Shown here: positions 6,510-63,199 of the stretch, piece by piece
Numbering within the stretch: the first letter of the stretch is position 1
Layout of the letters: every line of letters starts with the position of its first letter
From: Pseudolabrys sp. FHR47
GTDB taxonomy: Bacteria > Pseudomonadota > Alphaproteobacteria > Rhizobiales > Xanthobacteraceae
Direction: 5' to 3'
DNA: 64,000 nucleotides
Assembly (NCBI RefSeq): GCF_005153485.1
Contig: NZ_CP039740.1
Span: forward strand, 4,453,520-4,517,519
Program-made: the position numbers and the translations under genes
Notes under the pieces: model-generated
The model's input: only the letters and a program-made list of their open reading frames with translations
The model's database searches: none
What the model was told of the DNA's origin: nothing

Positions 6510-6604
6510 CCTCATCCTGAGGAGCGGTCGCAGACCGCGTCTCGAAGGATGGGGCGGCCACATGGTTCGAGACGCCGGGCTGCGCCCGGCTCCTCACCAT
6601 GAGG
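6510..6604. repeat. Dispersed palindromic repeat, family C, full copy
   Basis: Two hairpin units stand side by side. The left unit runs from CCTCATCCTGAGGAGC to GTCTCGAAGGATG and the right unit from CATGGTTCGAGACGC to GCTCCTCACCATGAGG, separated by about 10 bases. Each unit has its own GC-rich apex (GGTCGCAGACC; GCCGGGCTGCGCCCGGC). The same two units occur at 45691-45738 and 46035-46081, where a nuclease gene lies between them. The right end is 10 bases past the lpdA stop codon. Confidence 0.85.
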
Positions 6605-16274: not shown

Positions 16275-16358
16275 TCATCTCGACCATCGAAGAGCGCTGC
16301 GGTGCGAAGGCAGATGTGCGGCATGAACGGCGAGTTCGTGGGGCGTTAGGTTCTCCGT

Positions 16359-16507
16359 CTTCACCCTCCCCTGGAGGGGGAGGGTCGACTGAGCGAGCGC
16401 AGCGAGATTCAGTCGGGGTGGGGTGAGCTTTCGGAGTCAAAGGTTCACCCCACCCCGGCTCGCATCTTCGATGCTCGCCGACCCTCCCCCTCCAGGGGAG
16501 GGTGAAG
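16359..16507. repeat. Extragenic palindrome, family B, copy 1
   Basis: A long inverted repeat with arms CTTCACCCTCCCCTGGAGGG and its mirror at the right end, and inner arms around GGGGTGGGGTGA / TTCACCCCACCCC. Each outer arm itself contains a small palindrome (CCCTCCCCTGGAGGGGGAGGG). It lies in the roughly 1-kb gap between mdh and the DUF1003 gene. Bases 16062-16358 hold no gene I can support. Confidence 0.88.
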
Positions 16508-16607
16508 AAGAAGCGCGGCGGACATGCGTCATCGCCCGTATTCTTTGGTCGGCCCCGGGCAGGCCGCAGTCCCAGTTCGCATTCCTATCCAACGCCCCCT
16601 AACGAGG

Positions 16608-20591: not shown

Positions 20592-20621
20592 GGGTTGGTT
20601 CTCAGAACGTCAAACACACTC

Positions 20622-20702
20622 GTCATGGCCGGGCTTGTCCCGGCCATCCACGTCTCACAGCATAAAGAAGACGTGGATGCCCGGCACAAGGCCGGGCATG
20701 AC
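20622..20702. repeat. Extragenic palindrome, family A, copy 4
   Basis: Arms GTCATGGCCGGGCTTGTCCC and its mirror ending CCGGGCATGAC, with an inner CCACGTCT/AGACGTGG pair. It ends 5 bases before the arylesterase stop codon, so it forms the 3' end of both converging... thpR leader side and the arylesterase transcript; a role in transcript stability is possible. Confidence 0.82.
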
Positions 20703-20707
20703 GGGGA

Positions 20708-27007: not shown

Positions 27008-27130
27008 GTCGTCCCCGCGAAGGCGGGGACCCATACGCCGTGTTCTCTCGATAGTGCAGGGATTATGGGTCCCCGCTCATAGGCGTTCTAAAAGAACGCC
27101 GTCCTTCGGACGGCTATGCGCGGGGACGAC
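27008..27130. repeat. Extragenic palindrome, family A, copy 5 (long form)
   Basis: Outer arms GTCGTCCCCGCG and CGCGGGGACGAC; internal GGGGACCCATA and TATGGGTCCCC; and a small extra stem around GGCGTTCTAAAAGAACGCC. It is 123 bases long, longer than copies 2-4, because of that inserted hairpin. It lies between converging genes. Confidence 0.88.
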
Positions 27131-32462: not shown

Positions 32463-32550
32463 GTCATTCCCGCGAAAGCGGGAATCCAGCACGTCCTTGG
32501 GCAGGCGTCAGCGCGACAAAGAGCTGGATCCCCGCTTTCGCGGGGATGAC
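32463..32550. repeat. Extragenic palindrome, family A, copy 6
   Basis: GTCATTCCCGCGAAAGCGGG faces CCCCGCTTTCGCGGGGATGAC-type arms, with ATCCAGC and GAGCTGGAT inner pairs. It separates ccmA from ccmB inside what should be one operon. Confidence 0.88.
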
Positions 32551-43717: not shown

Positions 43718-45277
43718 ATGTTCGACAATCTGTCGGAAAAACTTGGCGGCATTCTCGACCGCCTCACCCGCCGGGGCGCGCTGTCGGAAGCCGACGTCGA
43801 CGCCGCGATGCGTGAGGTGCGCCGTGCGCTGCTCGAGGCCGACGTGGCGCTCGATGTGGCGCGCGAGTTCGTCGACAAGGTCAAGAAAGAAGCCGTCGGC
43901 GCCATCGTCGTGAAGTCCGTCACGCCGGGCCAGATGGTGGTCAAGATCGTGCACGACCAGTTGGTCGCCACGCTGGGCGCCGAAGCGCAGGCGATCGATC
44001 TCAATGCCGCGCCGCCGGTCGCGATCATGATGGTCGGCCTGCAGGGCTCCGGCAAAACCACCACCACCGCCAAGCTCGCCAAGCGCCTCACCGAGCGCCA
44101 GAAGAAGAAAGTACTGATGGCTTCGCTCGACGTGCGCCGTCCGGCCGCGATGGAGCAACTCGCCGTGCTCGGCCGCGAAACCGGCATCGATACTTTGCCC
44201 GTCGTCGCCGGCCAACAGCCGCCGCAGATCGCGCAGCGCGCGCTCCAGGCCGGCCGCCTCGGCGGCTACGACATCGTGCTGCTCGACACCGCCGGCCGAA
44301 CCACGCTCGACGACGAAATGATGAACGAGGCGGCCGAGGTGAAGCGCTCGGCCAACCCGCATGAAGTACTGCTCGTCGCCGACTCGCTGACCGGCCAGGA
44401 CGCCGTCAATCTCGCGCGTTCGTTTAACGAGCGCGTCGGCCTCACCGGCATCGTGCTGACCCGCGTCGATGGCGACGGCCGCGGTGGCGCCGCGCTGTCG
44501 ATGCGCGCCGTGACGCAGAAGCCAATCAAGCTGATCGGCACCGGCGAAAAGATGGACGCGCTGGAGGAGTTCGATCCCGCGCGCATCGCCGGCCGCATTC
44601 TCGGCATGGGCGACATCGTCGCCCTCGTCGAAAAGGCCGCCGCGCATATCGACGCCGAAAAGGCGGCGCGCACCGCCGAGAAGATGCGCAAGGGTCAGTT
44701 CGACCTCAATGACATGCGCGACCAGCTTCAGCAGATGATGTCGATGGGCGGCATCGGCGGCCTCATGGGCATGATGCCCGGCGTCGCCAAGATGAAGAAC
44801 CAGATCGCAGCGTCCGGGATGATGGACGACAAGCTGCTCAAGCGTCAGGTCGCGATCATCGAGTCGATGACGCCGCAGGAGCGGCGCAATCCCGACATTC
44901 TCAAGAATAGCCGCAAGAAGCGCATCGCCGCCGGTTCGGGCACCTCGCCGGAGCAGATCAACAAGCTCCTCAAGATGCATCGCGGCATGGCCGACATGAT
45001 GAAGATGGTCGGCAAGGGCGGCAAACGTGGCCCGCTCGCCGGCCTCGGCCAGATGCTCGGTGTTGGCGGCGGCGCAGCACCGTCGCCGGAACAGCTCGCC
45101 GAGATCGCCAAGAACATGCCGGGCGGCGGAGGCGGTCAACTGCCGCCGGGCTTGCCCGGTAGCGGAGGTTTTCCGCCGACAATGCCGAAATTGCCGCCGA
45201 ACATGCCCGGCCTCCCGGGCCTCGGCGGGAAATTCCCCGGACCCGGCGGACTGCCGGGCTTCGGGAAGAAGAAATAA
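43718..45277 (+). CDS. ffh: Signal recognition particle protein Ffh
   Basis: A 519-residue SRP54 homologue. N domain (1-85), GTPase domain with G1 [15 protein letters not shown] (about 106-120), [24 protein letters not shown] and [10 protein letters not shown], and a Met-rich M domain ([22 protein letters not shown], then [20 protein letters not shown]) that binds SRP RNA and signal sequences. The C-terminus has a Gly/Pro-rich extension (about 455-519). ATG 43718 ([11 protein letters not shown]) is the family start; the 9 upstream codons are repeat-derived. It leads the ffh-rpsP-rimM-trmD-rplS cluster. Confidence 0.97.
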
Positions 45278-45326
45278 CCCAACTTCAACACATCAACGAT
45301 CGAGATACCTGAAAGGAAACCTGAAA

Positions 45327-45665
45327 ATGCTCGTCATCCGTATGGCCCGCGCCGGCACCAAGAAGCGTCCATTCTATCACATCGTGCTCGCCGACTCGCG
45401 TTCGCCGCGCGACGGCCGCTTCATCGAACGCCTCGGCTACTTCAATCCGCTGCTGCCGAAGGACAAGGAAGAGCGCCTCAAGCTCGACTACGAGAAGGTC
45501 AAGGAGTGGATGAAGAAGGGCGCGCAGCCGTCCGACCGCGTGATGCGCTTCCTCGACAAGGCCGGCGTTGCCAAGCGCACCGTGCGCAACAATCCGGAGA
45601 AGGCCGTGCCGCGCAAGGAACGCAAGGCTAAGGCCGAAGAAGCCGCCAAGGCCCCGGCGGCCTGA
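45327..45665 (+). CDS. rpsP: 30S ribosomal protein S16
   Basis: A 112-residue small-subunit protein beginning [20 protein letters not shown], with the S16 blocks [19 protein letters not shown]. The Lys/Ala-rich C-terminal tail (residues 88-112) is usual in alphaproteobacteria. AAAGGAAA sits at good spacing. It lies 49 bases after ffh. Confidence 0.98.
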
Positions 45666-45690
45666 GGTTCGTCATTCGCCGTTGTGCTAC

Positions 45691-45738
45691 CCTCGTCCTG
45701 AGGAGGCCGGCATTAGCCGGCCGTCTCGAAGGACGAGG
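45691..45738. repeat. Family C repeat, left unit, before the GIY-YIG gene
   Basis: A nearly complete hairpin: CCTCGTCCT with AGGACGAGG as outer stem (9 base pairs, perfect) and GGCCGGC with GCCGGCC as apex stem around ATTA. It corresponds to the left unit of the full copy at 6510-6604, and ends 5 bases before the start codon of the nuclease gene. Confidence 0.9.
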
Positions 45739-45743
45739 CCGCA

Positions 45744-46079
45744 ATGGGTGCGTGGCTTTATATTCTTCGGTGCAACGACGGCAGCTATTACACCGGCACG
45801 ACACGTGCCGATCTTGAGCGGCGCGTGGCCGAGCATCAAAGCGGGCACTTTCCCGGTTACACCGAGACCCGGCGGCCGGTTGAATTGGCCTATAGCGAGT
45901 ACTTCGATCAAATCACCGACGCGATTGCAGCCGAACGCCAGATCAAAGGCGGGTCGCGCGTGAAGAAAGAAGCGTTGATGTCCGGGGATTTCGCAAAGCT
46001 TAAAGAGTCGGCGCGGCGGCACCGAAGCCCCTCTCTTCATGGTTCGAGACGCGGCGCTCCGCGCCGCTCCTCACCATGA
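45744..46079 (+). CDS. Small GIY-YIG nuclease-family protein, bracketed by family C repeat halves
   Basis: A 111-residue single-domain GIY-YIG protein. The motif is spelled [17 protein letters not shown] (residues 4-20), with Arg26/Arg27 (LERRVAEH) and Glu (around 30, 57) as usual catalytic residues. The family cleaves DNA. The right unit of the family C repeat encodes its last 13 residues ([13 protein letters not shown]) and its stop, which means the ORF was extended or terminated by the repeat. It lies between rpsP and rimM, where most relatives have no gene. Translation likely starts at ATG 45744 although no strong ribosome site is seen. Confidence 0.87.
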
Positions 46080-46081
46080 GG
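46035..46081. repeat. Family C repeat, right unit, spanning a stop and a start codon
   Basis: CATGGT (46038-46043) mirrors ACCATG (46073-46078), with GCGGCGC/GCGCCGC as apex stem. It corresponds to the right unit of the full copy at 6510-6604. The unit contains the GIY-YIG stop (TGA 46077-46079) and the rimM ATG (46076-46078). Confidence 0.88.
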
Positions 46082-46600
46082 TCCGAGAGCACGGACAAAA
46101 CCCGCGTATGCGTCGCGCGCATTGGCGCGGCGCATGGCGTGCGCGGCGAGGTCAAGCTGTGGTCCTTCACCGAGGACCCCGAAGCGATCGCCGATTACGG
46201 CCCGTTCGAAACGCAGGACGGCAAGCGCACCTTCGAAATCGAACAGATGCGCGCGGCGAAGGATCACTTCGTCGTGCGCCTGTCCGGCGTGCCCGACCGT
46301 ACCGAAGCCGAGAAGCTCACCAACACCGATCTCTACGTGCCGCGCGATCGCCTGCCGGCGATCGACGAGGACGGCACCTATTATCATGCCGATCTCATCG
46401 GCCTTGCCGCGGTGTCACCGGAGGGCATCGCGCTTGGCAAGGTGACGGCGCTTTACAATTTCGGTGCCGGCGACCTCATCGAAATCGCGACGCCGCAGGG
46501 CGGCGAGCCGATGCTGCTGCCGTTCACCAATGCGGTGGTGCCGGAGGTCGACATCAAAGGCGGCAAGATCACGGTCGTGCTGCCGTCGATCATTGAGTGA
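46076..46600 (+). CDS. rimM: Ribosome maturation factor RimM
   Basis: A 174-residue 16S-processing and 30S-assembly factor that binds S19. N-terminal domain [24 protein letters not shown] (about 12-35) and PRC-barrel C-terminal domain ([18 protein letters not shown]). ATG 46076 overlaps the preceding stop as ATGA and is part of a repeat; no Shine-Dalgarno sequence is visible in front, so translation probably depends on the upstream gene. The first ten or so residues ([10 protein letters not shown]) are not conserved in the family. Confidence 0.95.
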
Positions 46601-46604
46601 TCTT

Positions 46605-46735
46605 CTTATCCCTCCCCTGAAAGGGGAGGGTCGACGCGCGTAAGCGCGTCGGGGTGGGGTCAAACTGACCTCACCGATGACCCCCACCCGGCGAGCTTCG
46701 CTCGCCGACCTCCCCCTTGCAGGGGGAGGTATAAG
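46605..46735. repeat. Extragenic palindrome, family B, copy 3, between rimM and trmD
   Basis: Outer arms CTTAT-CCCTCCCC and GGGGAGGTATAAG; inner GGTGGGGTCA and TGACCCCCACC; a GCGCGTAAGCGCG-type apex on the left. The right end runs directly into the trmD ribosome site (AAGGA 46733-46737). Confidence 0.87.
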
Positions 46736-46744
46736 GACTGTGTG

Positions 46745-47440
46745 ATGTTCCGCGCCACCATCCTCACCCTCTATCCGGAGATGTTTCCCGGCCCGCTCGG
46801 CATCAGCCTGGCCGGCCGCGCGCTCGCCAATGGGCTGTGGTCACTCGAAGCCAAACAGATCCGCGACTACGCCACCGACAAGCACGGCACGGTCGATGAT
46901 ACGCCGGCCGGCGGTGGCCCGGGCATGGTGATGAAGGCCGACGTCCTCGCCCGCGCGCTGGATGCCGTTTCGCCCGATGCCCGTCCCCGCATGATCATGA
47001 GCGCGCGCGGCAGACCGCTGACGCAAGCCAGAGTCCGCGACCTGGCAGCCGGCCCCGGCGCGGTGATCCTGTGCGGCCGCTTCGAGGGCGTTGACGAGCG
47101 CCTGATCGAGGCACGCGGCCTCGAGGAAGTCTGCCTCGGCGATTTCGTGCTGTCCGGCGGCGAGATGGCCGCCCTGACCCTGCTGGACGCCTGCGTGCGC
47201 CTCATTCCGGGGGTCATGGGCAAGGAGGCCTCCGGCGTCGAGGAAAGCTTCTCCGACGGCCTCCTGGAATACCCCCAGTACACCCGGCCGGCCGTGTTTG
47301 AGGGCCGGCCGATCCCGGAGGTCCTGACCTCCGGCGACCACGCCAAGGTCGCCGCCTGGCGCCGCGCCGAGGCCGAAAGGCTGACCCGGGAACGCCGCCC
47401 GGACCTCTGGGCGGCCTTTTTGGCCCGAAAGAAGCCCTGA
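46745..47440 (+). CDS. trmD: tRNA (guanine-N1-)-methyltransferase TrmD
   Basis: A 231-residue SPOUT methyltransferase making m1G37 in t[51 protein letters not shown] (S-adenosylmethionine knot) and [22 protein letters not shown] are all present. GTG 46742 just upstream could serve as start, but ATG 46745 is better spaced from AAGGA. Confidence 0.97.
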
Positions 47441-63104: not shown

Positions 63105-63199
63105 GTCGTCCCCGCGAAGGCGGGGACCCATACGCCGCGTCCTCTCGATAGCGTGTTGGCTATGGGTCCCGGGCCTCGCTGACGCTCGCCCGGGACGAC
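63105..63199. repeat. Extragenic palindrome, family A, copy 7
   Basis: GTCGTCCCCGCGAAGGCGGGGACCC-type left arm and a right arm ending CGGGACGAC, with GGGACCCATA facing TATGGGTCCC. Lies between converging genes. Confidence 0.87.

Follow-up and report, generated by a model that had tools for sequence, protein, structure and literature searches.

A small GIY-YIG nuclease gene lies between two facing palindromic (REP) units inside the rpsP-rimM operon of Pseudolabrys sp. FHR47, and related genes in other genomes and on plasmids are also bracketed by inverted repeats. The best reading of this arrangement is a REPtron-like element in which a GIY-YIG nuclease would replace the RAYT transposase, both the action of the nuclease and the movement of the element being predicted from sequence comparisons.

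The GIY-YIG gene and its repeats in Pseudolabrys

The stretch of DNA analyzed here (the window; 64,000 nucleotides) is the terminal part of a 4.52-Mb single-contig genome. The following features were observed at the locus:

45327..45665, + strand: rpsP (ribosomal protein S16), an ORF and the upstream neighbor of the element
45691..45738, + strand: left palindromic (REP) unit, 48 bp, F orientation, CCTC tag outward, DNA fold z -6.55
45744..46079, + strand: GIY-YIG nuclease gene (presumed enzyme), 111 aa, from the ORF, the PF01541 match and aligned homologues
46038..46081, + strand: right palindromic (REP) unit, 44 bp, R orientation, DNA fold z -5.70
46076..46600, + strand: rimM, an ORF whose ATG overlaps the nuclease stop

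The left unit reads CCTCGTCC...GGACGAGG. The left and right units face each other, and each carries the core GAGGAG...CGTCTCGA or its complement, like the gene-less dimer at 6510-6604; the right unit (family D3) has 89% identity to 6561-6604. As single-stranded DNA, both units fold far better than their shuffles (z -6.6 and -5.7, with 0 of 200 shuffles equal). The first-pass annotation had described a nuclease gene between the two halves of a palindromic repeat inside rpsP-rimM, and the sequence and ORF reading confirm it. Its figure of about 300 bases between the units also stands (299 around the nuclease gene), but the 10 or so bases given for the compact block do not, as the same unit ends are 6 bases apart. 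Furthermore, the right unit does supply, as claimed, the last 13 codons of the nuclease gene (99-111), its TGA stop and the ATG of rimM (46076), which shares the four bases ATGA with that stop. In the rimM frame upstream of 46076, the ORF listing holds no other ATG, GTG or TTG start after the preceding stop. Because rimM takes its start codon from the repeat, and this codon overlaps the stop of the nuclease gene, the window copy appears to be tied into the operon now. Across 45200-46900, no Rfam family of structured RNA reached its gathering threshold.

The window protein matches PF01541 with 55.7 bits (cut-off, 22.6), and this was the sole domain found. Among 43 aligned homologues, Y6, G18, R27, H31 and E64 are invariant and Y16 is at least 90% conserved; we take Y6, Y16, R27, H31 and E64 to be the GIY-YIG catalytic residues. 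By its domain and conserved residues, the protein belongs with the GIY-YIG nuclease superfamily, and nuclease activity is predicted. Its AlphaFold model is poor (mean pLDDT, 60.7; pTM, 0.42). The closest solved structures by sequence are the UPF0213 single-domain GIY-YIG proteins PDB 1zg2 (E 5e-12) and 1ywl (E 4e-10), both hypothetical proteins; the small GIY-YIG genes of other types in the present set are unbracketed (0/19). A known defense gene was rejected, as all PADLOC matches were weak. A phage origin was likewise unsupported: in PHROGs, the window protein and L003 had no match, while L002 and L005 had weak ones only, and the L005-type protein had no match in a phage collection. A study of Caulobacter XRE regulators, in the part covered here, regards two GIY-YIG genes as possibly phage related.

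The in-frame reading of the right repeat is observed well beyond this locus. Among the best 120 of 620 homologues, whose tails were judged from protein letters (the DNA was seen for fetched loci alone), the C-terminal tail reads as the right unit in 97. The form HGSR...SSP accounts for 86 of these and HPS...SSG for 11, and the two correspond to two forms of the right unit translated in one frame up to an internal TGA; several of the other 23 tails are near variants. The right unit overlaps the matched coding end in fetched loci L018, L021, L022, L023, L024, L034, L038 and L041, among others. A repeat lying beside the gene by chance is unlikely to have stayed in frame across so many lineages, and in some of them the right hairpin seems to have become part of the protein.

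The PF01541 profile matched eight places in the genome, two of which are not small genes (UvrC, L007; a 250-aa frame, L008). Five of the six small genes lie between palindromes (L002, L003, L004, which is the window gene, L005 and L006), with four repeat families involved and whole dimers flanking some of the genes. The sixth, L001, is unbracketed and of a different subtype (YVYVLGC...YVGWTND). L005 and L006 (3817721-3818578) are two tandem GIY-YIG elements with one repeat family; the C-terminal third of L006 diverges as if frame-shifted, and L005 reads through. A RAYT was rejected as a resident of this genome, in which the Y1/RAYT domain (PF01797) has no match anywhere.

Four gene-less dimers related to the repeats beside these genes lie in the window, none with an assigned strand:

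6510..6604: gene-less dimer of the window repeat family, from the sequence read, units 6 bases apart
20621..20703: gene-less dimer of the repeat family that brackets L005/L006 (family I8)
27008..27073: gene-less dimer with units like those beside L003 (D5; by-eye comparison)
63105..63170: another gene-less dimer whose units resemble those next to L003 (D5; by-eye comparison)

In the 4.52-Mb genome, the core GAGGAG-N6-24-CGTCTCGA occurs in 24 copies, gene-bracketing units included, of which 3 look like chance matches (no stem), versus 0 for the reversed control pattern. A strict right-unit pattern gave 8 matches versus 0 for its control, and the L005 repeat family counts 40 units, again with the gene-bracketing ones. 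Thus, gene-less copies far outnumber gene-bearing ones in this genome. A further CGTC-type inverted dimer, GTCATTCCCGCGAAAGCGGGAATCCAGC / GCTGGATCCCCGCTTTCGCGGGGATGAC, lies at 32463-32550; by eye, its exact arm form does not occur beside any of the small GIY-YIG genes of the genome, six in all. Another dispersed inverted repeat, of the CTCCCCT...AGGGGAG type and without a CGTC-type tag, fills 46601-46735, between rimM and the gene that follows, and recurs at 16353-16513.

Repeat-bracketed GIY-YIG genes in relatives and beyond

The close relatives of the window gene carry the same association. Among the matches listed for 100 family genomes, 33 at E 1e-15 or better fall in 28 genomes. Five close matches were listed without a locus (L152 among these was fetched later), and L032 and L042 were left out of the unit scan because of contig edges. 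Of the 26 loci scanned, 19 have units on both sides and every one has a unit on at least one side; the most frequent order is F-gene-R (13/26). Random intervals from the same loci gave 0/260 two-sided and 20/260 one-sided cases, and rpsP control loci gave 0/28 and 3/28; by these controls, chance proximity of gene and repeats was rejected. The sister subclade of the gene carries a sister repeat, CGTCATCCTGAGGTG...CCTCGAAGGATG, which links the window family to CGTC-tagged repeats. Genes of this type lacking the repeats in relatives, named beforehand as evidence against the association, were therefore not what these loci hold.

Covariation of gene and repeats, also proposed beforehand, held in one direction. 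All 19 genomes with the window gene type have at least 13 units (median, 68), while the 9 with the sister subclade only have a median of 4, the sorting into gene type C and sister type having been made by eye at E 1e-15. In the other direction it held only in part: the 72 genomes with neither the gene nor the sister type have a median of 1 unit, but 25 of them have 10 or more. The units in those 25 genomes are perhaps relics or repeats served by an undetected gene copy.

At the rpsP-rimM junction itself the gene is rare. The rpsP query matched 39 of 41 family genomes and 30 rpsP loci were read; this genome alone, 1 of the 30, has a GIY-YIG gene there. The junction is thus normally without an extra gene, as the first-pass annotation had supposed, and the alternative it had allowed for, a gene fixed at this place across the order, is not seen in the loci read. 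Two relatives (L052 and L060) hold gene-less dimers of the window repeat family at the junction, with a unit order opposite to that of the window; at least one further locus, L058, holds a dimer of a CGTC-tagged family, and in the genus mate G034 (L048) both gene and units are absent from the junction.

Loci were added from named genomes and from a sample of 120 phylum genomes. The GIY-YIG loci were the best-scoring of longer lists, with 41 from one scan and 7 plasmid copies, and are therefore not a random sample. A generic arm test, which takes the best inverted match between the two flanks and is blind to repeat family, placed 54 of 103 GIY-YIG loci above the 99th percentile of 618 random intervals (threshold, 29.7); 28 rpsP controls had a median of 22 and a maximum of 31. 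The window's own arms score 18, because its two hairpins differ in stem, and are recognized by the family core alone.

Of 137 loci assembled, 2 without a tblastn hit (L083 and L087) and 2 duplicates were removed, leaving 133; 16 of these, bracketed and unbracketed, failed the motif or frame check, so that 117 entered the protein tree, and dropping 5 more with short flanks left 93 repeat-type and 19 other-type genes, a split made by eye on the tree of 117 proteins. Inverted arms were found in 68/93 repeat-type genes versus 0/19 other small GIY-YIG genes (Fisher p 1e-9), and 25/93 repeat-type genes have no detectable arms. L166 had been extracted in a wrong frame and L089 sits inside the large clade; with both moved, the comparison becomes 68/95 versus 0/17 (p 1.3e-8). 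The other-type genes L149 and L161 are unbracketed though their genomes, G063 and G085, also hold bracketed genes. These counts, with five of six in the Pseudolabrys genome, support the earlier suggestion of a RAYT/REPIN-like system with a GIY-YIG nuclease and extend it beyond what was first seen. Statistically, the association of the genes with repeats is strong, and the protein is a candidate enzyme for them. G085, a 3.0-Mb genome, has 14 PF01541 matches (UvrC and partial ones included), many bracketed, with several palindrome families; two genomes of its genus have 5 and 2.

A strict search for outward-tagged hairpins in both flanks recovered 27 of the 68 bracketed loci, typically laid out as YGTC-hairpin-CCA...gene...TGG-hairpin-GACR. 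Such arms also occur in records labeled as a planctomycete (L119), Ignavibacteria (L129), Bergeriella (L130) and Flavobacteriaceae (L144), some of which are metagenome bins whose labels may be wrong. Furthermore, a match between gene subtype and repeat subtype is observed. Over the 68 bracketed loci, arm similarity tracks protein identity (Mantel r 0.51, p 0.0005; pairs below 80% identity, a value reached in none of 2000 permutations). The correlation is also seen inside each of the two subclades (r 0.27, p 0.009; r 0.33, p 0.0005), and genome relatedness contributes to this match. Genes in one genome differ in their arms, and the same arms and protein type recur in other genera (L003 with L151 and L155; L005 with L148, L159 and L164). 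In a cross-genome test of 18 cases, one of them lacking a same-genome neighbor for comparison, the closest protein elsewhere exceeded any same-genome neighbor in arm similarity in 11, and we count this test among the results that speak against our reading.

Occupied sites, proposed mechanism and competing explanations

Plasmids carry these genes too. Matches were found in 33 and 20 plasmid records, and six of the seven copies read are bracketed, the exception being L177. The copy L180, on plasmid AZO_p3 of Azospirillum lipoferum 4B, lies between two complete REP dimers and between sufB and sufC; after rpsP-rimM, this is the second such element to sit within a row of genes resembling an operon.

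Occupied and unoccupied forms of the same site are observed. In Sphingobium plasmids, the gap between fnrL and the response regulator (fixJ) is fully covered in 7 records and about 350 bases shorter in 4. Among those read, the full element is present in L182, L237 and L238; a solo hairpin with tags on both sides is found in L233 and L234, and other hairpins, without a tag, in L235 and L236. The left part of the L233/L234 solo hairpin matches the left arm of the full element and the right part its right arm; this hairpin may have been left by a deletion between the palindromes, or it may represent the ancestral target. Three plasmids cover a Shinella site, and the two of them that were read lack the element. 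For the Bradyrhizobium copy between rmuC and an MFS gene (L112), the empty sites span the joint at only about 75% identity and are thus too distant to give exact ends. No clean insertion between near-identical strains was found, so the exact ends and the target are deduced from comparison.

Among 27 elements, one of which (L029) is a doubtful hairpin call, no target-site duplication was detected at lengths 2 to 9 (p 0.13 to 0.995). A pyrimidine (C or T) adjoins the tag on its outer side at 52 of 54 ends. The flanks show slight inverted identity, with p values of 0.03, 0.06 and 0.04 for three bins (26 rows, L029 excluded). For three genomes that are about 91% alike, 3 of the 15 listed indels are gene-less CGTC-type dimers that one genome has and another lacks, and no GIY-YIG gene was seen in those 15. 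Other repeat types, a GAGCATGATCCGGAAAAG family among them, likewise occur in one but not in another of the related genomes G333, G283 and G290 (stretches L214-L231).

The explanation we hold to be probable is that left REP, GIY-YIG gene and right REP form one inherited mobile element, that gene-less dimers of its repeat family are non-autonomous forms derived from it, and that the GIY-YIG protein is the dedicated enzyme of the CGTC-type and related window repeats, in the place of RAYT. GIY-YIG enzymes, for example UvrC and Slx1, cut at DNA structures. The protein would bind the hairpin of its own repeat and cut at the hairpin base beside the (C/T)GTC tag while the DNA is single stranded or extruded. 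Release or copying of the double hairpin, whether or not it contains the gene, would follow, and host replication or repair would join it elsewhere, gene-less dimers behaving as non-autonomous copies. Single-strand hairpins would explain the absence of target duplication. It counts against this explanation that a nuclease of about 110 residues without known joining activity would need host help. The 25/93 repeat-type genes without detectable arms, the unbracketed plasmid copy L177, the 25 of 72 gene-less genomes rich in units, the low generic score of the window arms and the lack of a clean insertion between near-identical strains also weigh against it. We infer that it is the nuclease that does the moving.

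The main rival, which we consider unlikely, is that a free-standing GIY-YIG homing endonuclease cuts existing REP dimers between the hairpins and is copied in by recombination on the arms, making it a parasite of the repeats and not their mover. Homing would place the gene where it is found, in the dimer spacer, and would lead equally to matched repeat and protein types; GIY-YIG is a classical homing nuclease fold in the part of a 2006 survey covered here (PMC1564403). As homing would have it, a solo REP hairpin occupies the position of the gene in Sphingobium L233 and L234, but this solo REP could equally have arisen by deletion between palindromes, and in two other Sphingobium relatives the site has other hairpins but no REP with a tag. 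A homing gene also agrees less well with a right repeat read in frame as the protein end in many homologues, or with rpsP-rimM dimers of two relatives whose unit order is opposite to that of the window.

A host-adapted or regulatory enzyme, which processes REP hairpins or cruciforms and has its expression controlled by the flanking REPs, neither being moved by it, seems improbable to us. Transcription of REPs is plausible, and they may function as RNA elements, according to the part of PMC3733652 covered here, and the rpsP-rimM element does overlap rimM as ATGA. However, the presence of the gene is patchy (the 33 listed matches in 28/100 genomes), it is absent from 29 of the 30 rpsP-rimM junctions read, it is carried on plasmids, and some genomes have several copies (14 PF01541 matches in G085 versus 5 and 2).

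Strongly disfavored, finally, is the idea that RAYT or another transposase moves the repeats and the GIY-YIG gene adjoins them by chance in insertion-tolerant gaps: gaps such as rpsP-rimM do collect several repeat families and 6 of 20 genomes tested have a Y1 domain, but this genome and 13 others (14/20) have none, two-sided units occur in none of the 260 random intervals or 28 rpsP loci, and the other-type small genes, L149 and L161 included, are unbracketed.

Relation to known REP systems and significance

In the part of their study covered here, Di Nocera et al. (2013; PMC3733652) divided REPs into GTAG and CGTC superfamilies and tied the former to RAYT transposases. The CGTC REPs, which predominate in Alphaproteobacteria, occur in five phyla and include dRS3 of Neisseriae and RPE-6/RPE-4 of Rickettsia conorii, "apparently lack a dedicated transposase," and their mode of spread was left open. 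The word GIY is absent from the main text of that paper. The 2006 GIY-YIG survey (PMC1564403), in the portion covered, reports no GIY-YIG homing endonucleases in Alphaproteobacteria and contains no word beginning with "palindrom." Among the papers found in the open-licence PMC literature, we recognized no earlier statement of a link between GIY-YIG proteins and REPs.

With RAYT/REPtron/REPIN systems (IS200/IS605-like TnpA-REP with GTAG REPs), the window element shares a single small enzyme gene flanked by monomers or dimers of a dispersed REP family. Also shared are REPs that in some cases overlap the gene end, repeat-specific pairs and many gene-less inverted dimers (for the RAYT side, PMC3733652 in the part covered). 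It differs from them in its enzyme, an HUH Y1 protein in RAYT systems and an unrelated GIY-YIG protein (PF01541 only) here, and in its tags, GTAG in those systems and GTC or CTC (CGTC/TGTC/CCTC) in the present units.

The resemblance to CGTC REPs lies in arms such as CGTCATTCCCGCGAAAGCGGGAATCCAG, with a CGTC tag, AT at the stem start and a CCA tail, and in the predominance of inverted dimers, often of unlike units, which is also seen here. Terminal CGTC/TGTC/CCTC tags with AT at stem positions 1 and 2 are present, the window family having CCTC and other families CGTC or TGTC; the AT is found in the gene-less dimer and the right unit, whereas the left unit at 45691 has GT. The window family departs from the stem of 8 to 9 bp, loop of 4 to 5 bases and CCA tail of CGTC REPs in having a bulged two-part stem and no CCA, and arms of the L002, L003 and L005 types show or nearly show that form. 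Compared with the text of the paper, the window family therefore appears to be a relative, not a strict member, of the CGTC REPs. These were published without a transposase (PMC3733652, in the part covered), whereas here a GIY-YIG gene lies between the arms.

GIY-YIG homing endonucleases of the I-TevI type share the catalytic fold and a mobile gene; unlike them, the window element has no intron, one domain in about 110 aa and its own repeats as flanks. From classical DDE insertion sequences it differs in the lack of target-site duplication across the 27 elements.

On balance, and with some hesitation, we favor a broader view, that the dedicated enzymes which CGTC-type REPs seemed to lack are, in several phyla, stand-alone GIY-YIG nucleases. 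These would form a minimal class of mobile element (a hairpin-nuclease-hairpin unit of about 400 bp), mechanistically separate from RAYT/REPIN and from known transposons. For each of several repeat families, the association points to a candidate enzyme, and the question of the mobilizer becomes testable with one small protein and one short hairpin. If true, this would assign a function to many genes whose present name is just "GIY-YIG nuclease family protein" and would represent a second, unrelated solution to the REP-mobilizer problem.
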